Below, one piece after another: positions 1 through 17,991 of a DNA stretch of 64,000 bases (positions are counted from its first letter, which is position 1; each line of letters opens with the position of its first letter). The notes beneath the pieces are model-generated. The model made no database searches. It worked only from the letters and a program-made list of their open reading frames with translations, and had not been told where the DNA came from. The DNA is from Bifidobacterium ruminantium DSM 6489 (GTDB taxonomy: Bacteria > Actinomycetota > Actinomycetes > Actinomycetales > Bifidobacteriaceae): NCBI RefSeq assembly GCF_000770925.1, contig NZ_JDTK01000009.1:1-64000 (forward strand), in the 5' to 3' direction. Position numbers and translations under genes: made by a program.

Positions 1-7
1 CCCTGAG

Positions 8-235
8 TGTCCGTTTCTGCAGAATCGGACATCCATGGCATCTGCAGAACACCACGCGCGACCGATTCTGGAGAATCAGACACGTAAGGCACATTCCGCA
101 AGGCTTAGATGTCCGTTTCCCCAGAATCGGACACTCAGACCCAGATATTGACCCCGCGAACGTCCGATTCTGCAGAATCGGACACGTAGGGCACATTCCG
201 CGAATCCTGGATGTCCATTTCTCCAGAATCGGACG
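8..235. repeat. Palindrome array A: five units, 51-bp period
   Basis: Five copies of a 24-bp palindrome (left half TGTCCGATTCTG followed by its reverse complement) start at 8, 59, 110, 161 and 212, so the period is exactly 51 bp with 27-nt spacers. Copy 4 is near perfect; the others carry one to four changes, mostly in the central CTGCAG (variants CTGGAG, CCCCAG, CTCCAG). Spacers at 83-109 and 185-211 resemble each other. No cas gene is in the window and spacers are partly conserved, so this is not a normal CRISPR array. The array may continue left of the window. Confidence 0.9.
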
Positions 236-289
236 CCGGATATCGAGACTCAGGACCCAAGGAGCCTCGAGGGACCTGCGCGGTCAATC

Positions 290-919
290 TCACTTGGTGT
301 ACACGGAGATGCGCTCGCCGACGTGCTTGGCGGATTCGGCCTCGTCCACCACGGCGATGGCGAAGTCGGCGTAGCTGATGAAGCTCTGACCCTCGGCGTT
401 GGCGGTGAACTCTTCGCCGGCCAGCTCATAGGAGCCGGTGCGCGCGCCTTCGGCCTGGAAGTCGGCGGCCGGGCTGATGTAGGTCCACTTCACGTCGGTG
501 CGCTCACGCAGTTCCTCCAGCGACTTGCCCATGCCGTTGGCCAGCGGAATGAACGCCTCCGGGAAGGTCGGCAGGTCCTTGACCTGGGTCTTGTGCTCGA
601 CGTCGACGTACAGGCTACCTGCGCCGCCGACCACGATCAGGCGGGTGTCGGTGCCGGACAGCGCGTCGCACAGGGTCTTGAGGGAGGTGGAGTGCTGCGG
701 CTGGTCTTCCGGAGCCCACACGCCGAACGCGTCCACGACCACGTCGAAACCGGCTAGGTCGGCTGCAGTCAGGTCGAACAGGTCCTTGATGATGGCGTGC
801 TGCGCTTCGGACTTGTTTTCGCCGCGCACCACGGCGGTCACGTCATGGCCGCGCTTGACGGCCTCCTTGACGACGAGCTGGCCTTCCTTGCCGTTAGCTG
901 CCACCACTGCGATCTTCAT
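290..919 (-). CDS. NAD(P)-binding Rossmann-fold protein (atypical SDR, NmrA/YwnB-like)
   Basis: The 209-residue product opens with a nucleotide-binding strand and a glycine motif (AANGKEG at residues 8-14), followed by a second strand and basic VVRGENK, typical of the small NAD(P)H-binding family that includes YwnB and NmrA-like proteins. A GGAGSLY segment near residue 98 follows the fourth strand. The usual SDR catalytic Tyr-x-x-x-Lys is not evident, as expected for atypical members. A good ribosome site (GAAAGGAAC) precedes the start. It is divergent from an HxlR regulator, an arrangement common for redox or quinone-stress genes. The substrate is unknown. Confidence 0.85.
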   Translation of the reverse strand: MKIAVVAANGKEGQLVVKEAVKRGHDVTAVVRGENKSEAQHAIIKDLFDLTAADLAGFDVVVDAFGVWAPEDQPQHSTSLKTLCDALSGTDTRLIVVGGAGSLYVDVEHKTQVKDLPTFPEAFIPLANGMGKSLEELRERTDVKWTYISPAADFQAEGARTGSYELAGEEFTANAEGQSFISYADFAIAVVDEAESAKHVGERISVYTK

Positions 920-1039
920 GTTTGTTCCTTTCGTAGGTTTCTCAAGGTTTTAGCGGGCGGATTTCCGTTGCTTCCCGCTGTCGCTATGAACATTATTTCC
1001 ATACCGACCAAAACGGAAGAAGGCATAATAAAGTGCTAT

Positions 1040-1057
1040 AGTTACCAAAAGGGAACT
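1040..1057. promoter_or_regulatory. Candidate operator between the SDR gene and hxlR-type regulator
   Basis: An inverted repeat AGTTACC-AAAA-GGGAACT (one mismatch) sits in the divergent intergenic region, 43 bp ahead of the regulator start. HxlR proteins bind short dyads as dimers, so this is a reasonable but untested operator. Confidence 0.4.
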
Positions 1058-1099
1058 TTTATTGATTTTATTGCGATTAGTAAAGGAGCGATTTTTCTG

Positions 1100-1423
1100 A
1101 TGGAACGTGAGTTACCGGCGTGTCCTGTGGAGACGACGCTGTTGATGATCTCCGATAAGTGGAAAGTGCTGATCCTGCGTGACCTGCTGAACGGGACCAT
1201 GCGGTTCAGTGAGCTGCGCCGTTCGATCGGCAATGTGTCGCAGAAGGTGCTGACGGCGAATCTGCGTCAGATGGAGCGCGATGGATTGGTGCATCGCGAG
1301 GCGTATCCGGAAGTGCCGCCGCGCGTGGAGTATTCGCTGACGGAAACCGGGCGGACGCTGCAACCGATTATCGAGGCGATGAAGGACTGGGGCACGCAGT
1401 ACAAGGCTGAACATGCCGCCTAA
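1100..1423 (+). CDS. HxlR-family winged-helix transcriptional regulator
   Basis: This 107-residue protein fits the HxlR/MarR-like family: a Cys near the N-terminus (CPVETTLLMISDKWKVLIL), the DKW signature, then FSELRRSIGNVSQKVLTANLRQMERDGLV as recognition helix, and a wing ending in YSLTETGRTL. The length is typical. I place the start at the ATG with AAAGGAG upstream rather than at more distal ATGs that lack one. It is transcribed away from the SDR-like gene and probably controls it, perhaps through oxidation of the conserved Cys at residue 8. Confidence 0.9.
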   Translation: MERELPACPVETTLLMISDKWKVLILRDLLNGTMRFSELRRSIGNVSQKVLTANLRQMERDGLVHREAYPEVPPRVEYSLTETGRTLQPIIEAMKDWGTQYKAEHAA

Positions 1424-1506
1424 TCCGGCCTCTTCACTCCCATTTGCCAATCGCGACACGCCGATTTGTTACTTAGGATGAAGCGGTGTAAATTAATCGA
1501 TTGTCT

Positions 1507-1589
1507 GCGAGCGTGGCGGAATGGTAGACGCGCTGTCTTCAGGTGGCAGTGAGTGTATGCTCGTGGGGGTTCAACTCCCCCCGCTCGCA
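1507..1589 (+). tRNA. tRNA-Leu (anticodon CAG)
   Basis: The acceptor stem GCGAGCG pairs with CGCTCGC, the anticodon stem-loop is CTGTC-TTCAGGT-GGCAG with anticodon CAG, there is a long class II variable arm, and a GGTTCAAC T-loop. CCA follows at 1590-1592. Its 3' end is the insertion site of the element that follows. Confidence 0.93.
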
Positions 1590-1590
1590 C
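1569..1590. other. attL core (tRNA-Leu 3' end)
   Basis: This segment runs from the T-loop to the CCA start of the tRNA and matches 8689-8709 over 21 of 22 positions. The functional tRNA is on this side. Confidence 0.75.
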
Positions 1591-1599
1591 CAGCAAGAA

Positions 1600-1640
1600 A
1601 GAGCCTGAATCGTTGGAATTCCAACGATTCAGGCTCTTTT
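1600..1640 (+). terminator. Rho-independent terminator after tRNA-Leu
   Basis: A perfect 18-bp stem (AAGAGCCTGAATCGTTGG with its complement) and AATT loop ends in TTTT. It is brought by the element; the presumed native terminator lies after attR. Confidence 0.85.
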
Positions 1641-1951
1641 GCTATGTCACAAAAGGTCAACTGGTTACAAAAATGGTGACAAAAGTTTCACAACTCATTG
1701 GCGTTGTTGAAAACGTATACGACGAAATCGCTACCAAAGAGGCAAAAATAAAGGCAATCAAATCGTCGTGGCCCAACTAAAAACAAAGCACACGAAAAAC
1801 GAATGGTGGCAAATCACCAATCTCTGAGAATGGCGGAACAGTCCATTTATGGCAGTATTTGCATTCTTCGCTCCATTTTTCACACCCGAAAACCGTTGGA
1901 ACGAGCCATTTCTTGCAGTTTTTACACCGTTCAGTGGATTGGGGGAGAACC
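1641..1951. other. Non-coding left end of the element
   Basis: AT-richer than its surroundings, with repeats of GGT(T/G)ACAAAA. I see no convincing gene; the open frame through the tRNA has no ribosome site. Confidence 0.5.
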
Positions 1952-2857
1952 ATGGCCAGACACGTTGACGCGATACCGATGGACGGTGTCAGGCCGAAGC
2001 CCATACGCATGCTGAACGAACGGCTTCCCTTCGCCTGCGGCATGACCTTGTTCTCGGGCGACGGGGAAACGGGCAAGAGCGCAATGGCCATTAAATTGGC
2101 GGCTCAGGCCACCAGGGGAACCTGCGGAGGCTTTCTGAAGGATCCTATAGACGTTGGCTTCATCCTCACCGAGGACGACTGAGATAAGGTCAGCGGCCGC
2201 CTCATGGCGTCCGGAGCGGACATGGGGCGAGTCCATTGCTTCGTATCGTTCAATGACGCCAATCCCGATATACGCGACAAAACGGTCGATCTGACCAAGG
2301 ACATGGCTTTGGCGCGTGCGGCATGCGCCCAGTACGGCATCAAGCTTCTGGTGATTGACGCGCTTGCCGAATGCATGGGAGACATCGACCAGAACCAGCA
2401 CGGGCCGGTCTCTCGCGTTCTCACGCGTCTCAGCCAGTGGAGCGAGGAGGATGGCGTGGAAATCATCGGACTGCACCACGACGGCAAGGGGGACAAGGAA
2501 CGGACATTGCCGGTCCCTACTCGTCTTGCTTCCGAGCTTCGTCACCGTCCTGTCGGCTGGCTGTTTCCCGGCGGGGCGGAAGGATATTGCGGCGTGGACT
2601 TCGTCGCCAAACGCATCAGGACGGCGACCGGATGGCCCTCGCACAGCCTGCGGCGACGATTCGCCACCGTCAGCTACTACCGAAGCGGCTGCAACATCGT
2701 CCTGGTCAGTCGGATGCGCGGCCGCTCCAACATTGCTACCACCATGCGCTACATCGGTCTGGTCCAGAACGAAATGAGAACCACGATTGAAGCCACGGCC
2801 CGCACCGACATGCACACAGACCGCATCACCAACGCCTTCATCGGGAAAGTCAGCTAA
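1952..2857 (+). pseudogene. RepA-like ATPase fused to the C-terminal half of a tyrosine integrase, with in-frame stop
   Basis: The start has a good ribosome site (GGGGGAG). The first part has a Walker A motif GDGETGKS (about residue 33-40) and reads like a plasmid RepA/DnaB-type hexameric ATPase. An in-frame TGA at 2180-2182 interrupts it where a Trp would fit (EDD-stop-DKVSGRL), and the frame resumes unchanged. After IIGLHHDGKGDKERTLPVP the sequence becomes an integrase catalytic domain: Lys in GKGDKER, HSLRRRFAT and a Tyr in TTMRYIGL. The first catalytic Arg region is absent, so a deletion joined two genes at the shared GKG stretch. It is almost certainly non-functional as an integrase. Confidence 0.8.
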
Positions 2858-2905
2858 CACTCCATGTCTATCGGCTTAGACTCGAAAGCAACCCAACACA
2901 CCTCA

Positions 2906-2936
2906 TTATATGGTCCCAGAATCTGGTACCATATAA
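2906..2936. promoter_or_regulatory. Inverted repeat, probable operator of the toxin-antitoxin-like pair
   Basis: TTATATGGT (2906-2914) and ACCATATAA (2928-2936) form a perfect 9-bp dyad directly upstream of the next start codon. Autoregulating antitoxins usually bind such sites. Confidence 0.6.
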
Positions 2937-2938
2937 GT

Positions 2939-3193
2939 ATGTTTGAATGTGAGGAATCGGCCTACAAGCACTGGTTTACACAGGCGCAGATCGACTATGT
3001 GATCAGGCATGCGGTGGCGATGTTCGAGGTCGAGTCACGACGGCCCGGCGACCGTACCATGGCGTTCCTCGGATACGTGGACGAGTCACGGGAACGCCGT
3101 GTGGAAGTGCTGGTTTCGCAGCGCACACGCAAGGCGTTCCACGCGATGGACTGTCGTCCCGACTGGCAGCGGTTCTTCGACCAGGCGAAATGA
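2939..3193 (+). CDS. Small putative toxin (BrnT/DUF4258-like), first gene of a pair
   Basis: The 84-residue product has the short alpha-beta layout of small RNase-type toxins: helices at residues 1-30, then strands around MAFLGYVDE and RRVEVLVSQ, ending in FHAMDCRPDWQRF. The HAM...RP ending recalls actinobacterial BrnT-like toxins, but the match is not exact and I do not assign a family firmly. The upstream in-frame ATG at 2864 would place the operator inside the gene, so I use 2939, although no strong ribosome site precedes it. The next gene, with a DNA-binding-like C-terminus, starts 11 bp downstream, which fits a toxin-antitoxin operon. Confidence 0.6.
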   Translation: MFECEESAYKHWFTQAQIDYVIRHAVAMFEVESRRPGDRTMAFLGYVDESRERRVEVLVSQRTRKAFHAMDCRPDWQRFFDQAK

Positions 3194-3204
3194 AAGGAGA
3201 AGCC

Positions 3205-3528
3205 ATGACTCACAACAACGAATGGTCCGAACTGTCGGACTCGTATGCCGAACACACCCCGCGGATCGTCGGCGAGGTCATCCGCCCGTCCCGGCCACTC
3301 ACGGCAGCCGACCTGGATGACATCTTTGCAGGCAGGCCGCTCGCGGAGCAGCCGCGGCAGCAGGCGTCGGTGATGTGCAAGACCTATCTAACGCCGGACA
3401 TGGCATCCCGAGCCGCCATGCAGGCCGAAAAGGAGCACCTGTCCAAGGCAGCTCTACTGCGCAAGGCCCTGGCAGCCTACCTCAACAATCCCACTCAGGC
3501 GAACACGCGCATTCCACAGACCGCGTAA
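3205..3528 (+). CDS. Putative antitoxin with ribbon-helix-helix-like C-terminus
   Basis: The 107-residue product starts after AAAGGAGAAGCC. Its N-terminal 55 residues are probably the toxin-neutralising part; residues 60-95 (KTYLTPDMASRAAMQAEKEHLSKAALLRKALAAYL) look like a ribbon-helix-helix DNA-binding fold. Order toxin first, antitoxin second is like BrnT/BrnA. It likely represses its own operon at the dyad at 2906-2936. Confidence 0.6.
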   Translation: MTHNNEWSELSDSYAEHTPRIVGEVIRPSRPLTAADLDDIFAGRPLAEQPRQQASVMCKTYLTPDMASRAAMQAEKEHLSKAALLRKALAAYLNNPTQANTRIPQTA

Positions 3529-3546
3529 TCGCACCACATGAAGAAC

Positions 3547-3590
3547 GAGCGGGGCGGCATCATACCAAATGATGCCGCCCCGCTCATTTC
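3547..3590. terminator. Bidirectional terminator
   Basis: A 16-bp perfect stem (GAGCGGGGCGGCATCA, 3547-3562, with 3570-3585) and TACCAAA loop lies between convergent genes; T-rich on the plus side. Confidence 0.85.
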
Positions 3591-3602
3591 ATCGTTCATC
3601 CG

Positions 3603-4865
3603 CTACCGCGCCGCACGGTTTCGCTTCCCGGTGAATGCGTAGAGGCCGACCAGCATGAGACAGGCGACCAGGAAGAACAGCGGAATCACCCTCGTCACCG
3701 GCAGGAAACGCAGCACCACGCCGATGACGCCCAAGGTCAGCATGGAACAGATGCGGGACACCGCCGAGCTCACCGACGTGAGCGTGCTCAGGGATTCCTC
3801 GCTGGCCATCGACCGGAAGTGGGCATCCGAATAGAACACGACGATCCAGAACCCGAAGACGAACAACAGGTAGGCAGCGAGCGATGCCTCAGCCCCCGTG
3901 AACATCACCATCAGGGATGCCGCCGCGACTACACCGAAGACGACCTTCAACGTTCGGCTGGAACGCAACCGCCCCACCGCAGACGCTCCCAGGAACGTCA
4001 CCAGCACCGAGATCAGCTGGAACGCGACGTACACGATGCCGAAATACCGCGACGAGACGCCCTCTGCCAGGAAATACGCCTGCCAGAACTGGAAATGCAC
4101 CTGGAAGAAGATCTGCGTCACGGCGATGACCAGGATGATCCTGCGAATGGAAGCATCCTTCAGACAGGCAATCGCCTCACTGATGGTAGCGCGGAACATG
4201 CCCGCCATGTTCGTCCTAGCTGCCAGAGTTTCCGTTTTCTCCTGTTCGAAGTCCTCGGCGTGGAGCCGGAACGCCGCCTGGACGAACAGCACGACGAACA
4301 GAGCCGCGACCGCCACCCACAGGTACAGCGCGTCGCCGACGAACGGATACACCGCGGAGCCGACCAGGCCGCCGACTATCAGTCCAATGGTCTCGCACCG
4401 GGCGTCAAGACGTACCAGGTAGTGAAGTGTCTTCCCCGGCTCCATCCCGGAGCCACGGCAGAACTTGCGCACCGCCAGAATCGCCTCGTTGCCGATCGTG
4501 CCCGACTCGAAGGCGTTGGACACCCCGTAGATGAACCATGCCAGGCACAGCAACGCCGGCGAGGACACGCAGAACACCAAGACGCCGAACACCGCCAGCA
4601 ACAGCTTGGAGATGACGTAGATACGCTTGCGTCCTAGTGAATCGGCTGCAATCCCCGAGGGAATCTCAAACAGGAACACGGCCAGCGAATAGAACACCTG
4701 CACCAGGGCGATCTGCGACAGGTTCAGTCCCTTGGCCAGGAGAATCGGGGTCAGCACCGCATGCGGGAACGACACCGCAAGCGCCGCCAGAAAGGAGGCG
4801 CCATAGTAGATACGAGTGCCGGTTACGATTGGCTTCGGAAAGCTGACGGGCCATTTAGCATCCAC
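3603..4865 (-). CDS. MFS transporter, candidate exporter of the mcc-like product
   Basis: The 420-residue product has about twelve hydrophobic segments and the major-facilitator signature after TM2-3 (FEIPSGIAADSLGRKR). I choose a GTG start at 4865 with CGGAG upstream, which overlaps the last 11 bp of the adenylating-enzyme gene and implies translational coupling. In microcin C clusters mccC encodes an MFS exporter that lies directly beside mccB and gives producer self-protection, so that role is inferred from position. Specificity cannot be read from sequence; a general drug exporter is the alternative. Confidence 0.8.
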   Translation of the reverse strand: MDAKWPVSFPKPIVTGTRIYYGASFLAALAVSFPHAVLTPILLAKGLNLSQIALVQVFYSLAVFLFEIPSGIAADSLGRKRIYVISKLLLAVFGVLVFCVSSPALLCLAWFIYGVSNAFESGTIGNEAILAVRKFCRGSGMEPGKTLHYLVRLDARCETIGLIVGGLVGSAVYPFVGDALYLWVAVAALFVVLFVQAAFRLHAEDFEQEKTETLAARTNMAGMFRATISEAIACLKDASIRRIILVIAVTQIFFQVHFQFWQAYFLAEGVSSRYFGIVYVAFQLISVLVTFLGASAVGRLRSSRTLKVVFGVVAAASLMVMFTGAEASLAAYLLFVFGFWIVVFYSDAHFRSMASEESLSTLTSVSSAVSRICSMLTLGVIGVVLRFLPVTRVIPLFFLVACLMLVGLYAFTGKRNRAAR

Positions 4866-5898
4866 AATATTTGCACTCCGGGTCACGACGTATCGGCAGC
4901 TCCATCCTCTTCCAGCTGCCATTCGCCATTCCAAGCCGCTTGTCAAAGGACTGGACCAGGTCATAGTTCGCCGAGACGAACGCGGCCACATCAAGCATGG
5001 CCATTGACGAAGCCACGGCATTGTTTGGGAAAGCGGACGGCGCCGAATAGTTGGCGTTGATGTCCTTAAGATACCGTTCCACCTTGCTGGAGGCGGAAGA
5101 AGGCACCAGAGAAAGCGTATTGCCGCATAGCGGGCAGGCATGTCCTGGCGCCCAGAGCGGCCCGATGACCGATATGTCGTTCAGATAGCCGACGTTCAGG
5201 AATGGTGTCTGATGCTTGACAAGCACCGGGGTTATCTCTGCCAGCAGTCCTTCCGAATCTGCTGACACTATCGCGAACTTCTTCCCATCCGTTGACGACA
5301 GCGCCTTGTCCAGGGATTCCGTGTTCCCTCCCTCAAGGGAATACTCGATATGAACTTCCGGATTCCTTAGTTGAAGCCTTTCCTTCAGAAGGGAGGCCTT
5401 GTGCTTTCCTAGATCGTCCTCGGTGAACAGGAACTGCCTGTTCAGGTTCGATTCCTCGACGATATCGAAATCGGTGATGTAGAGTCCCTTTGTCGGATGC
5501 ATGGCCAGCGCATACCCCGTGAAGTTTCCGATGCCGCCGGCTCCCACAAGGTAGAAGGTGTAATCGGTAAATGCCTGCAACACTTCCTGACCGTTCCCGA
5601 AGATCTGGTCATAGTAGAGAGCCGTCTTCCGATAGACGCCCGCGAAACGATCAGCTCCCTCAGGGCGACGGATGAGGGCCTTCAGCTCGATCAGCTTCTC
5701 AACGTCGGCCATGACAATCTGCCCCGACTGAGCGGCATCGTCGACCTCCTTGTCAGAGCGAGGGGCGAGGAACCAGTGTAACGTGGCGAGTATCCGGTCA
5801 GCGTCCTTTTCCGCTATGACCGTCTGTTTCGTTCCCAATCCCAGAACAAGTCCGTCCTGAGCGAACTGTCCCATCAATGTCTGGGAGGTCAAGAGCAT
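4855..5898 (-). CDS. mccB: MccB/ThiF-type (E1-like) peptide-adenylating enzyme
   Basis: The 347-residue protein contains the E1-like ATP-binding core: VGAGGIGN (about residues 109-116), YITDFDIVEESNLNRQFLF with the Asp and Arg that bind ATP, and two CxxC zinc pairs (CPLCG near residue 255, CKYC at the C-terminus). About 100 residues precede the core, the size of the precursor-binding domain of MccB, and length equals that family. MccB converts a C-terminal Asn of a short peptide into an N-P linked nucleotide. The start has a strong AAGGGGGA site. An MFS gene overlaps its end and a strong ribosome site with an MRLSAKN start lies 97 bp upstream. ThiF/MoeB alternatives lack this context: no ThiS, MoaD or sulfur genes are nearby. 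Confidence 0.82.
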   Translation of the reverse strand: MLLTSQTLMGQFAQDGLVLGLGTKQTVIAEKDADRILATLHWFLAPRSDKEVDDAAQSGQIVMADVEKLIELKALIRRPEGADRFAGVYRKTALYYDQIFGNGQEVLQAFTDYTFYLVGAGGIGNFTGYALAMHPTKGLYITDFDIVEESNLNRQFLFTEDDLGKHKASLLKERLQLRNPEVHIEYSLEGGNTESLDKALSSTDGKKFAIVSADSEGLLAEITPVLVKHQTPFLNVGYLNDISVIGPLWAPGHACPLCGNTLSLVPSSASSKVERYLKDINANYSAPSAFPNNAVASSMAMLDVAAFVSANYDLVQSFDKRLGMANGSWKRMELPIRRDPECKYCGC

Positions 5899-5995
5899 TT
5901 GTTTCCCCCTTCTTATGGGAGGCGGGGACGGTAGTCGCCGTCCTCGCCAGTTGTATGGATCTTTGATTACCTCGGTTCTTTGCAGACAGACGCAT
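5798..5995 (-). CDS. Candidate microcin-C-like precursor start (MRLSAKN...), stop codon apparently lost
   Basis: An ATG at 5995 has the strongest ribosome site in the element (GGAGGGGG, 6-nt spacing). Its first seven codons read MRLSAKN, a heptapeptide ending in Asn like known MccA peptides (E. coli MRTGNAN; H. pylori MKLSYRN). Codon 8 is CGA, one transition from TGA, so the frame runs on for 65 codons into mccB in another frame; the extension looks non-coding. Either the stop was lost (decay or sequencing error) or the true precursor is different. Position 97 bp ahead of mccB fits mccA. Confidence 0.5.
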   Translation of the reverse strand: MRLSAKNRGNQRSIQLARTATTVPASHKKGETNALDLPDIDGTVRSGRTCSGIGNETDGHSGKGR

Positions 5996-6158
5996 TTCAG
6001 ACCCCCTCCGATAGCCGGATATTCAGTTAGCAGCAAGCGAGATGGTTGGCACCCCTTTGCCGACGCCGTACTAGCTCATCGCACAGACAAACCATCCGTT
6101 CTGACGGCGTTTCTCGAAGATCTCCATCACTCCCCCACCCCTAATGTGAGGGTGAAGG

Positions 6159-6398
6159 CTAGACGCCGTGGGATAGACGGCTCAGGAACCGCTGTGTGAG
6201 ACCATATAGAAGAATGCCGCCGACGAGCACTGCGCAGGCTCCGGAAAACACTAGGGTCCAGTCCTTTGTCCCCATGGTCACACCGAACCAGAGTAGGAGT
6301 CCGAGAATCAATGCGAGACCGGCGGGAACCGTATCGCCCCCGTGATTGTTTCGCGGGGCGTTCTTGTTTCTCCTCGCTCCGAATGTCCAAACCGGCAT
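6159..6398 (-). CDS. Small two-TM membrane protein, unknown
   Basis: The C-terminal 55 residues form two hydrophobic segments (VPAGLALILGLLLWFGVTMG and TLVFSGACAVLVGGILLYGL) with a short basic tail. The start is uncertain: the ATG at 6398 lacks a ribosome site and longer starts overlap the oriT-like region. It is co-directional with and upstream of the mcc-like genes, so it could be a leader, immunity or unrelated element gene. Confidence 0.45.
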   Translation of the reverse strand: MPVWTFGARRNKNAPRNNHGGDTVPAGLALILGLLLWFGVTMGTKDWTLVFSGACAVLVGGILLYGLTQRFLSRLSHGV

Positions 6399-6470
6399 GC
6401 GCGCGATCGACGGACGATTGACGCAAAGCATTGGACATCTCTTCAAGGCATTGAGGGAAAGGAGCGAATC

Positions 6471-6704
6471 GTGAACGCGATCAAGTCCCACGGAATTCCG
6501 CAAAAGCCTTGCGCGAGATTGCTCCCGATCCATGAAATGGATATGGGAGTAGCAAGCGACGTGATTGGATATCCAATCACTCGAAACGCGTTGCGTTTCG
6601 GCTTGCTCGGGAGACCCAGACCCCATGGTCGAGCAAGCTCTCCAGACCGCTTCGCGGCAATAAAGACGACCCGCCTCCACGTTTTTCTTGGAGGCATGCA
6701 ATGA
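6471..6704 (+). CDS. Small ORF upstream of mobC spanning an oriT-like region
   Basis: A GTG start with GGAG at 6-nt spacing opens a 77-residue frame whose TGA overlaps the mobC ATG (ATGA), which suggests translational coupling. The protein is basic and resembles nothing I know. Because three inverted repeats lie inside, the frame may be incidental to DNA function, or serve only to feed ribosomes to mobC. Confidence 0.4.
   Translation: MNAIKSHGIPQKPCARLLPIHEMDMGVASDVIGYPITRNALRFGLLGRPRPHGRASSPDRFAAIKTTRLHVFLGGMQ
6561..6695. other. oriT-like cluster of inverted repeats
   Basis: Four dyads lie in 135 bp ahead of mobC: a 20-bp perfect palindrome at 6561-6580 (GTGATTGGAT plus complement), CGAAACGC-GTT-GCGTTTCG at 6582-6600, CTTGCTCG/CGAGCAAG at 6603-6638, and GCCTCCA/TGGAGGC at 6673-6695. 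Transfer origins of MOB_P elements usually lie just upstream of mobC and consist of such dyads next to the nic site. The nic site itself cannot be named by eye. Confidence 0.5.
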
Positions 6705-7081
6705 GCAAGGCCGAGGGCAGAACGCACTGCGTCGAGAAGATCATCAGGTTCACGCCGGACGAGTGGGAACGGGTGCGCAAACTGCACGAGGAACTGACCA
6801 GGTACGCGCTGGAGCACCGTTCGTTCGCCTCGTACGCGCGCCGGATGCTGTCCGAACGGCGCATCCACGTCACCGAGATCAGACCGTTGACCGACCCCGA
6901 GCCGATCGCCCGCGAGATCGACCGCATCGGCGTGAACGTTAACCAGATCGCCCACTGGGCCAACGCGAACGAGCGCATAACGCCCGAGCAGGTGGCCGAG
7001 ATCCGCGCGTCGTTCGACCGCATCGAGCGACTGCTCGGCGACCTGTTCGCCGACAGGCGCGACGCGGGGAAGGACGCGTGA
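6701..7081 (+). CDS. mobC: MobC-type relaxosome accessory protein
   Basis: The 126-residue protein has an N-terminal ribbon-helix-helix-like segment (EKIIRFTPDEWERVRKLHEEL) and the MobC signature REIDRIGVNVNQIAHWANA at residues 70-88, where N-x-N-Q-I is diagnostic. MobC binds oriT and helps the relaxase open it. Its end overlaps the relaxase start (GTGA). Confidence 0.88.
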   Translation: MSKAEGRTHCVEKIIRFTPDEWERVRKLHEELTRYALEHRSFASYARRMLSERRIHVTEIRPLTDPEPIAREIDRIGVNVNQIAHWANANERITPEQVAEIRASFDRIERLLGDLFADRRDAGKDA

Positions 7082-8559
7082 GCATGGCCGTGGTCAAGCT
7101 CGGCAGGCCCGTGAAATCGAATCTCGGCGGCCCCAACGGGGCGATGGCGTACATCATCGACCCCGCCAAGACCGACGGCGGGAGACTGGTCGGCTCGAAT
7201 TACGAGCGGACCAGGACGGACTACGACGCGCTGGCCGAAGGCATGCTCGACGACAACCGCAGGTCGCCGAAGGGCATCCGGAAGGACAGCCGGCTGGCGT
7301 ACCACATCAAGCTGAGCTTCAGCCCCGACGACCCCGTGACGCCCGAGAAGGTGCACGAGCTCGGCATGGAGTTCGCGCGCCGGATCACGGGCGGCGAATA
7401 CAGGTTCGTGGTTGCCACGCACACCGACCGCCACCATCTGCACGACCACATCATGGTGTGCGCCGCCTCCCGCTACGGGAAGCATCTGAAGGCCGAGCTG
7501 CCCAAGGACATCATCGACCAGTGGCGCGCGGTCAGCGACGAGATATGCCGCCGCGAGGGTCTGAGAGTCGTGTTCAACCCCGTCGTGGAGGAACAGGCAC
7601 GCAAGATGCGCGGCAGCGAGACCACGACGGACGACGCGCCGACGACACGGGAACGCGATCCCGAACGCATCGATGAGACCGCCGGACCGGGCGCGGCGAC
7701 GCCGCCACGGACGACGCGACGGGCCGAAGGCGAGGAGCCGGTGGAGCGCCGGTACGGCATGTCGATGGAGGAGATTTACGCGTCCGCGAAGGGCATGGGC
7801 GTCAAGGACCGGATCCGCATGCTGATCGACCTGACCTCGTCCGCGGCGGAGAACTTCGAGGACTGGAAGGACATGCTCGACATACGCGGCATCGGCGTCG
7901 AAGTCCGCGGCCAGCACTTCACGTACACGCTCAAGGACACCGGCTTCAAAGTCCGCGACACGAAGCTCGGCCAGGCGTACGACATGACGAACATCATGGC
8001 CGGCCTCGCGCACACGCCCGTCATACCCGTCACGTTCAACCGCCGCCTCGTCGTCAACCGGACCGGGAAGACGGTCACCGTGTGGCTGCCCGGCACCCAC
8101 CGAAGGAAGAAGATCACGTTCGACGCGAAGCGCCTCGTGGACGACGGCGGCTCCACGCTGCGCGCGTTCCTGCCCCTCCACCGCGACCAGATCATCCTCG
8201 ACCCGTCCAACCGGTACGCCGGCCAGACCCCGACGACCGGCCTCTACCAGTGGTTCGGCGAGCCTACAAGCCGGCTCGAACCGCAGACCGCACCCGAACG
8301 GCTGCCGCTGCGCTACGGGGTCAGCCCCGCACAGCAGCGCTACTACCAGGCGCAGGCGCACCGCCTCGACCGACTGGCGGGCGAGGCGAAGGCGTTGAAC
8401 TCGGCGATCCAATGGACCCGCCTCGCCGGTGGCGACACCGCCAAGGAACATGGAAACAATCGTTCCAAGAGGCCATACAAGAAAATCGAGAAGCAGACGA
8501 CTCCGACAACATCACCCTGCACTTATACGACCATAATTAAACACTCATCCAGCCACTGA
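7078..8559 (+). CDS. mobA: MOB_P-type relaxase (MobA), probably frameshifted near its end
   Basis: The relaxase domain shows the HUH metal motif HTDRHHLHDHIMV (about residues 121-133) and an N-terminal segment LAYHIKLSFSPDD. The nicking Tyr is probably in the first 60 residues (YIIDP or NYERTRTDYDAL). The 493-residue frame runs on after residue ~455 into a low-complexity tail; shifting frame near 8445 instead gives WKQSFQEAIQENREADDSDN and a natural stop at 8540, which looks like the true ending. GTG at 7078 overlaps mobC; ATG at 7084 is the alternative. It would nick oriT for transfer by a helper conjugation system. Confidence 0.85.
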   Translation: MSMAVVKLGRPVKSNLGGPNGAMAYIIDPAKTDGGRLVGSNYERTRTDYDALAEGMLDDNRRSPKGIRKDSRLAYHIKLSFSPDDPVTPEKVHELGMEFARRITGGEYRFVVATHTDRHHLHDHIMVCAASRYGKHLKAELPKDIIDQWRAVSDEICRREGLRVVFNPVVEEQARKMRGSETTTDDAPTTRERDPERIDETAGPGAATPPRTTRRAEGEEPVERRYGMSMEEIYASAKGMGVKDRIRMLIDLTSSAAENFEDWKDMLDIRGIGVEVRGQHFTYTLKDTGFKVRDTKLGQAYDMTNIMAGLAHTPVIPVTFNRRLVVNRTGKTVTVWLPGTHRRKKITFDAKRLVDDGGSTLRAFLPLHRDQIILDPSNRYAGQTPTTGLYQWFGEPTSRLEPQTAPERLPLRYGVSPAQQRYYQAQAHRLDRLAGEAKALNSAIQWTRLAGGDTAKEHGNNRSKRPYKKIEKQTTPTTSPCTYTTIIKHSSSH

Positions 8560-8688
8560 TCCGTGGTGACAAAACGGTGACAATCATCCTGAAATCTCCC
8601 TCTAGGCTACGTGATTGAACTTGCCAAGAACCTAAGCAAAACAAGGCCTTGTCAGTCTCACATGACCCAACAATACGATGCCCATAGA

Positions 8689-8709
8689 GTTCAACTCCCC
8701 CGCTCGCAC
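8689..8709. other. attR core
   Basis: A 21-bp copy of the tRNA-Leu 3' end (T-loop to discriminator and C) with one C deleted from the run of six. No tRNA 5' part is nearby. Confidence 0.75.
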
Positions 8710-8715
8710 GGGAAT

Positions 8716-8759
8716 AGAAAACCCCGGAACGTTGGAATACCAAGGTTTCGGGGTTTTCT
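8716..8759 (+). terminator. Terminator after attR, presumed native to tRNA-Leu
   Basis: An 11-bp outer stem AGAAAACCCCG/CGGGGTTTTCT with T-rich tail. It shares GTTGGAAT with the loop of the terminator at 1600-1640. Confidence 0.7.
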
Positions 8760-9134
8760 CGTATGCGACGCATCCGAAAATATGCCAAAAAAATGTACCA
8801 AAAACCTGACGTTCAGCAGCGAATCCCGAAACTTCTGAAACTCCAAGACTGCCAAATCCATCGAAAATTGCCAAGGTGGCAGCATCGTTTCCATCGCGCC
8901 ATCATCGCGCTATCATCGCATTTCACTGTGAGCATAATTCTGGAATGGGAGGCACACGGAAGAGTTGGGTGAAGTGAAAGGTCAAGGTCAGGAGCCCGGG
9001 AGGGTTCCGGATGTGGCAACGAACCCGGTCGCCGGTGTCGCTAGATGGTGACGCCGCAGCGATAATCGCACGGCCGGCTGCCAAGCCGCATTACTCCGCG
9101 CGCCGAACGCGCATTTGCTTAAGGAGTACCGATT
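8760..9134. other. Intergenic region ahead of hsp20
   Basis: No gene is evident. I looked for CIRCE and HspR-type dyads and did not find a clear one. The hsp20 ribosome site AAGGAG lies at its right end. Confidence 0.5.
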
Positions 9135-9593
9135 ATGGCAATGTTTCCGGCTTTGATGAATGACACGATGTTCTCCGACCTGTTCGATGATCCGTTCTTC
9201 GAGGGTTGGCGCAACATGGATCGCGCGGCATGTGATGCGAATATGTCGACGGGCATGATGAGCACCGATGTGCGCGAAACCGACAAGGGCTACATGGTCG
9301 ACATCGACATGCCTGGTTTCAAGAAGGACGACATCTCGCTGGATCTGCAGAACGGCTATCTGACCGTTTCCGCGCATCGCAATAGCTCGCACGAGGACAA
9401 GGACGGCAACGGCCGCTGGCTGCGTCGCGAACGCTACGCCGGCTCTTGCTCTCGCAGCTTCTACGTTGGCGAGGACATGAAGGATTCCGATATTCACGCC
9501 AGCTACAAGGACGGCACCCTGTGCCTGGAAATGCCGAAGCCTGAAGCGCAACAGCAGGTCGAGGCCAAGCACCAGATCGCCATCGAAGGCTGA
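9135..9593 (+). CDS. Small heat-shock protein, Hsp20 (alpha-crystallin) family
   Basis: The 152-residue chaperone has a short N-terminal arm (MFSDLFDDPFFEGW), then an alpha-crystallin domain from about residue 38 (MSTDVRETDKGYMVDIDMPGFKKDDISLDLQNGYLTVSAHR) to residue 135, and a C-terminal extension. The A-x-x-x-GVL-type strand appears here as ASYKDGTLCLEMPK. These proteins hold unfolding proteins for refolding. AAGGAG precedes the start by 7 nt. Confidence 0.95.
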   Translation: MAMFPALMNDTMFSDLFDDPFFEGWRNMDRAACDANMSTGMMSTDVRETDKGYMVDIDMPGFKKDDISLDLQNGYLTVSAHRNSSHEDKDGNGRWLRRERYAGSCSRSFYVGEDMKDSDIHASYKDGTLCLEMPKPEAQQQVEAKHQIAIEG

Positions 9594-9685: not shown

Positions 9686-9811
9686 TGTCCGATTCTGCAG
9701 AATCGGACAAATATGCATCCCAAACATGACCCCACGTGTCCGATTCTGGAGAATCGGACATTCACGCACCATCAACGCGACCTTGTTTGTCCGATTCTGG
9801 AGAATCGGACA
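9686..9811. repeat. Palindrome array B: three units, 51-bp period
   Basis: Copies of the array A palindrome start at 9686 (perfect, 24 of 24), 9737 and 9788 (both with CTGGAG centre). The period is 51 bp. It lies between hsp20 and the tauE-type gene. Confidence 0.92.
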
Positions 9812-10649: not shown

Positions 10650-10775
10650 TGTCCGATTCTGGAAAAACGGACACCCAACCGCCCCAAGCATATGACCACG
10701 CGTCCGATTCTGCAGAATCGGACACTCAGACCCCACATATGGCACTTCACGTGTCCGATTCTGCAGAATCGGACA
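10650..10775. repeat. Palindrome array C: three units, 51-bp period
   Basis: Units start at 10650 (right half altered to AAAACGGACA), 10701 (first base C) and 10752 (perfect). It lies between the exporter and the PucR gene. Confidence 0.92.
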
Positions 10776-17865: not shown

Positions 17866-17991
17866 TGTCCGATTCTGGAGAATCGGACACTCAGGGCACC
17901 AATTTGCATGCACGAATGTCCGATTCTGGAAAAACGGACATCCAAGGCACTCCAGCAGCACTTTGCGTGTCCGATTCTGCAGAATCGGACA
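17866..17991. repeat. Palindrome array D: three units, 51-bp period
   Basis: Units start at 17866 (CTGGAG centre), 17917 (same altered right half as 10650) and 17968 (perfect). It lies between the convergent tauB and EamA genes, where it could also terminate transcription. Confidence 0.92.

Follow-up and report, generated by a model that had tools for sequence, protein, structure and literature searches.

A microcin C-type mccABC cluster, probably silenced by loss of the precursor stop codon, on a small mobilizable element of a presumed bifidobacterium

Results

A probable minimal mccABC cluster whose precursor gene lacks its stop codon

We analysed a stretch of 64,000 nt (the window) and conclude that it probably carries a microcin C-type mccABC cluster in which mccB and mccC are intact, while the precursor gene has been inactivated by the loss of its stop codon and the cluster is silent in this genome. 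The reading draws on homology, predicted fold, gene order, a conserved precursor position and the missing stop. The locus appears to descend from a minimal mccABC cluster and, by its enzyme and exporter, would work like one, and the strain itself probably cannot make the antibiotic. The features of the locus and of the element that carries it are listed in Table 1.

Table 1. Features of the mcc locus and of its carrier element (window positions).
Feature	Position	Strand	Remarks
attL	1569-1590	+	3' end of tRNA-Leu (1507-1592)
Element gene remnant	1859-2857	+	AAA_25-like, with tyrosine-recombinase-like C-terminus; in-frame stop at 2180-2182
mccC	3603-4865	-	MFS exporter; GTG start (most plausible), 11-nt overlap with mccB
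mccB	4855-5898	-	347 aa; predicted peptide nucleotidyltransferase, peptide clamp and ThiF-type domain
Read-through ORF from the mccA-like start	5798-5995	-	65 codons; overlaps mccB, ends in Arg
G+C-rich hairpin between mccA-like start and mccB	5921-5948	-	located where the E. coli mcc hairpin is
mccA-like start	5972-5995	-	codons for MRLSAKN (5975-5995), then CGA (5972-5974); relatives have a stop at codon 8
Shine-Dalgarno GGAGG of the mccA-like ORF	6005-6009	-	9 nt ahead of the ATG, read directly from the sequence
mobC	6701-7081	+	Pfam
MobA/VirD2-type relaxase	7078-8559	+	Pfam
attR	8689-8709	+	near-copy of the 3' end of tRNA-Leu, with one C fewer

The enzyme belongs with MccB

Judged by its sequence, the product of mccB is a full-length MccB. 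When it was compared with all PDB sequences, three MccB proteins led the matches with E-values of 1.1e-32 to 2e-32 over residues 9/10-346, E. coli MccB being the best match with a solved structure (E 1e-32), and the first non-MccB matches were E1 enzymes, which started at 1.8e-15 and covered the core alone. The aligned residues 10-346 contain a ThiF/E1-type adenylation domain together with an N-terminal peptide clamp of approximately 90 residues, as defined in passages of PMC12250964. Nine window and locus sequences were used as input for AlphaFold2; the best model of the enzyme had a mean pLDDT of 84.7 (73.7-79.4 for the other four), and its PDB fold matches were MccB at ranks 1-24 (TM-score about 0.7), PaaA at ranks 25-26 and ThiF from rank 27. 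The N-terminal extension that the original prediction had noticed in the enzyme is covered by both the MccB sequence match and the fold matches.

In a tree of 30 rows, 15 MccB-type rows were split from 15 ThiF/MoeB-like rows, picked from 82 such loci, with a branch support of 98/96, and the window protein fell on the MccB side. Its sister is the MccB of the viral-database contig L086 (support 100/99, identity 39-40%), and its own branch is long (1.06 against 0.58). The two cysteine pairs that had been noticed in the 347-aa ThiF-fold protein are indeed in the sequence, and these zinc-type pairs, C255/C258 and C342/C345, are invariant in an alignment of nine rows; none of the 34 positions that are invariant in the other eight MccBs is altered. 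Third codon positions have a GC content of 0.69 in mccB and 0.83 in mccC, compared with 0.82-0.91 in three chromosomal genes; by this measure, mccB is less adapted than its surroundings.

The exporter and the lack of further mcc genes

The coupled MFS exporter was confirmed: its start is most plausibly the GTG at 4865, and L086 has the identical overlap between mccB and mccC and a GTG start as well. Compared from 4883, six codons ahead of the GTG, the protein shares 34% identity with the MccC of H. pylori and 36% with that of L086. E. coli mcc has adjoining genes for a methyltransferase, an acetyltransferase and an S66 peptidase (mccD, mccE and mccF), whereas no mccD-, mccE- or mccF-like gene was seen in the element, as judged from the ORF list and from Pfam scans of 11 translated stretches, which represent part of the ORFs. 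A search of the whole genome found no S66 (MccF-type) peptidase, in agreement with the earlier remark that no mccE/mccF self-immunity gene is visible. Elsewhere the genome encodes one HIT hydrolase and yields two S51-type matches, one of them barely over the cut-off, with no tie to the locus.

The precursor position is conserved, and its stop codon is missing

The mccA-like ATG (5995) precedes the start of mccB by 97 nt, and the codons from there read ATG CGT CTG TCT GCA AAG AAC CGA, that is, MRLSAKN followed directly by Arg rather than by a stop. The short ORF claimed at this distance therefore stood as to its Shine-Dalgarno-led ATG, but its shortness did not, and the proposed mccA-mccB-mccC layout holds for the gene order and the identities of MccB and MccC, though not for a precursor that stops after Asn7. 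For this reason, we do not file the locus as a productive mcc cluster.

A Shine-Dalgarno-led ATG heptapeptide ending in Asn and a stop codon (10 TAA, 1 TGA) is present 97-316 nt upstream of MccB in all 11 relatives whose MccB start is defined: MKLSYRN, MRTGNAN, MRGKTLN, MHRIMKN, MAGPLRN, MKGTVRN, MRGRRLN, MLGKKFN, MLKLGGN, MRLIIRN and MHVTPSN. The least sure of these is MAGPLRN, 316 nt upstream. If two loci of doubtful MccB start are included, the count is 12 of 13, with MNSVVRN in L015 and no Asn-ending heptapeptide found upstream in L016. The identical search upstream of ThiF/MoeB-like control loci returned 0 of 80, and the window also has no match in it because the stop is missing. The spacing of 97 nt recurs in L010 and L012, and in L014 for one of its possible starts only. 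The original prediction had named, as what would speak against it, an enzyme grouping with MoeB/ThiF and homologous loci devoid of short Asn-ending peptides; the relatives have these peptides, and the enzyme stands apart from the MoeB/ThiF-like rows.

According to passages of PMC6495379, all predicted precursors end in Asn, which is required for the N-P bond, precursors in the major MccB clade are 7 or, more rarely, 8 residues long, and for some MccB homologues no peptide could be predicted by the authors. Given this rule and the stop codons of the relatives, CGA at codon 8 breaks an otherwise conserved feature.

MRLSAKN shares M, L, S and N in register (4/7) with H. pylori MKLSYRN. Of the 2155 ATG heptamers in the window, 7 attain the score of this pair, 21, as do 2 of the 34 that are led by a Shine-Dalgarno sequence, and MRLSAKN is the only one of these two to end in Asn; in a looser count, Asn occupies codon 7 in 2 of 37 Shine-Dalgarno-led ATGs. 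Because the score is not unique and Asn7 recurs, the identification leans on position and on the relatives. Within 1500-8800, neither strand contains another Shine-Dalgarno-led, Asn-ending ORF of 5-60 codons, and the exact 21 nt of the MRLSAKN codons have no match in viral contigs. One-base frameshifts around codons 6-7, read by eye, give no Asn-ending product. The 65-codon read-through was rejected as a genuine long MccA because it ends in Arg, crosses the hairpin into mccB and belongs to an MccB that lies among relatives with heptapeptides.

The hairpin, a possible attenuator, has moderate support: its stretch folds with -23.8 kcal/mol (z -2.29; 4 of 200 shuffles were equally good) and has no T-run. 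Eight other intergenic stretches that were folded form hairpins too (z -1.7 to -6.4), and a terminator scan did not flag 5921-5948. For E. coli, passages of PMC6495379 describe that a ribosome bound to mccA causes transcription to end ahead of mccB, so that the level of mccA mRNA rises. A promoter scan of 5850-6500 yielded nothing sigma-70-like, a weak test with 0.4 expected in shuffles. Upstream of mcc and on the same strand, a small ORF (6162-6401) encodes two hydrophobic stretches, as seen by eye, and has no Pfam match.

The carrier is a mobilizable element integrated in tRNA-Leu

The cluster is carried by a mobilizable element of approximately 7.1 kb that is integrated in tRNA-Leu. Five further genomes of the genus (L111-L115) have counterparts of its mobilization module (6335-8449) at 83-87% identity, and the match starts at 6335, on the mcc side, in all five. 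The rest of window positions 1-9500 has no match in those five 14-15 kb stretches, except that L111 matches one more piece of this region, 58 nt long. The host is presumed to be a bifidobacterium on the basis of the original prediction and of the only near plasmid match, to Bifidobacterium catenulatum (87% over 114 bp). The window relaxase, with 493 aa, ends earlier than the ORFs of 543-544 aa in three of the five genomes.

Between attL and mcc lies the gene remnant, which scores with AAA_25 at 17.9 bits before its stop, under the cut-off of 27, and at 37.8 bits after it, over the cut-off. Its 3' half runs in frame into the recombinase-like C-terminus, where the Phage_integrase match (23.4 bits, E 5.8e-5) is below the Pfam cut-off of 27.1. 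Because of this stop and fusion, the element looks partly decayed.

A 24-nt palindrome, TGTCCGATTCTGCAGAATCGGACA, has the appearance of a dispersed repeat that forms mini-arrays. With up to 3 mismatches allowed, it has 12 copies in the window, at 8-184, 9686-9811, 10650-10775 and 17866-17991, in short runs with a period of 51 nt and differing 27-nt spacers. A 17-nt part of it occurs 19 times forward and 18 times reverse in the genome, in some cases at contig ends.

Distribution and comparison with known clusters

Among 112 genomes of the genus, one per species, a full MccB was found at the window's own locus only (1/112), and the same holds for 396 genomes of the phylum (1/396); the thresholds were 1e-15 and 1e-30, respectively. 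Other matches to L086 MccB in 189 genomes of the family were partial, 24-41% identical and ThiF-like. A scan of genome contigs and viral contigs with the single protein returned no MccB relatives, while an alignment of three rows, used as query of the same contig sets, did find relatives.

The closest of these are on the IMG/VR contigs L086 and L087, whose MccB and MccC are 39-40% and 36% identical to those of the window. Both keep an intact mccA, the heptapeptide MHVTPSN followed by TGA, whereas the window has no stop; their contig sequence has 35% GC, and the neighbours are unlike those of the window. One neighbour gene, 99% and 96% identical to its counterparts in the 1.6-1.7 Mb genomes G110 and G109, ties the two contigs to the GTDB genus of the window, as far as can be judged from that gene's sequence. 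Their host is presumably Gardnerella, which GTDB files in this genus. Neither G109 nor G110 has a full MccB.

The original prediction knew of no described example in bifidobacteria; the locus nonetheless seems to have company among bifidobacterial kin, since the closest relative (MccB 39%) has an intact heptapeptide gene on a contig that one neighbour gene links to this GTDB genus. Among the papers listed by full-text searches, mcc in bifidobacteria appears in none of the titles and abstract openings; Table S1 of PMC6495379 might list bifidobacterial entries, and the bifidobacterial clusters treated in passages of PMC4573289 are lantibiotics.

The mccABC of the H. pylori plasmid HPP12 (CP001218.1) is likewise a three-gene cluster beside mobC/relaxase genes, with an MccB 32-33% and an MccC 34% identical to those of the window. 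Its mccA ends with TAA where the window has CGA, and its mob genes are upstream in the same direction, whereas those of the window are divergent. E. coli microcin C7/C51 (MccB structures 3h5n and 6om4) shares the enzyme fold with the window and also has an intergenic hairpin, a feature with moderate support in the window; its heptapeptide gene precedes the MccB start adopted in this analysis by 98 nt, compared with 97 nt in the window.

Loci of the mccA-mccB type were also seen in Borrelia/Borreliella and Histophilus somni, with MRGKTLN (L005, 2036-2059), MLGKKFN (L012, gene upstream of 4638) and MRGRRLN (L010, 4895-4918). Another actinobacterial example, from a different part of the MccB tree, is Nocardioides stalactiti (L014, 4886-7228), whose mccABC-like locus encodes MLKLGGN and an MccB, with an MFS ORF next in line.

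Discussion

Chemistry and target are presented as established for MccB and McC in passages of PMC12250964, and we infer them, along with export, for a version of this locus with an intact precursor. There, MccB would clamp the formyl-heptapeptide fMRLSAKN and, with two ATP and via a succinimide intermediate, would form an N-P bond between AMP and the Asn at its end. The conjugate would leave the cell through MccC, which would also protect the producer. Once imported by a target cell, the peptide would be cleaved there, and the released aspartamide-adenylate would block its aspartyl-tRNA synthetase.

In the present genome, a working antibiotic locus is doubtful because the precursor ORF has no stop. 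With no stop after Asn7, translation runs on into a C-terminal tail, which deprives MccB of the terminal Asn that it would modify, and the cluster is most likely silent as a result. Neither MccB nor MccC shows signs of decay, which would be unexpected if the cluster were long dead, so either the loss is recent or the base is wrong; codon 8 was read from one strain with a draft genome of 67 contigs.

We regard it as unlikely that the cluster is fully functional and that the stop is absent through an error of sequencing or assembly, or because the sequenced allele is rare in a population that otherwise makes fMRLSAKN-AMP. The intact and conserved look of mccB and mccC would fit this, as would a gene order and spacing that match relatives with an intact precursor, but another gene in the same element is interrupted, which makes real damage plausible. 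The exporter of E. coli contributes to self-immunity, and the locus might have been kept for this function after the loss of mccA, with MccC shielding the carrier from McC-like compounds of relatives. An intact mccC and the intact mccABC on contigs that a neighbour gene links to the window's GTDB genus speak for such a role; MccB would then be unselected, yet its invariant positions are all preserved, and we give this explanation a low probability.

The remaining explanations are less probable still. The true precursor is very unlikely to be MPTISLAAN (6023-6052, minus strand), in which Asn is followed by TGA: this is the sole Asn-ending ORF of 4-60 residues that starts within 450 nt upstream of mccB, but it begins with GTG, has no spaced Shine-Dalgarno sequence and comprises nine residues where the relatives have seven and the major MccB clade, in passages of PMC6495379, has 7 or, more rarely, 8. 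Even slimmer is the chance that the extended precursor is genuine and put to use, with Asn7 being freed from the nascent MRLSAKN-RGN..., for instance by Asn cyclisation or ribosome drop-off; an intein-like cyclisation would cut the Asn-Arg bond and yield the peptidyl-succinimide of MccB's own first step, and ribosome drop-off would occur at the Arg codon. Slimmest is the chance that the protein has nothing to do with microcin C and activates a sulfur carrier in the manner of ThiF/MoeB, or is some other E1-like RiPP enzyme. Pfam matches ThiF alone in the protein and ThiF models top the NCBIfam results, but the latter are all far under their cut-offs (best 58.4 bits vs 159), and the full-length MccB match including the clamp, the tree and the MccC partner contradict such an enzyme. 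We rejected the ThiF/MoeB identity on the NCBIfam scores, the PDB sequence matches, the tree and the fold matches.

With this locus, the range of microcin C-type clusters comes to include presumed bifidobacteria, which are central to the infant gut and to probiotics, and one such cluster is seen there on a small mobilizable element. The apparently silent allele and the complete cluster in its kin would form a natural pair for testing how an antibiotic is lost while enzyme and exporter persist. If codon 8 should prove to be a sequencing error, the locus would become an immediate candidate source of a new antibiotic, fMRLSAKN-AMP, and the extended precursor, if true, would represent a new way of feeding the synthesis of peptide-nucleotide antibiotics.
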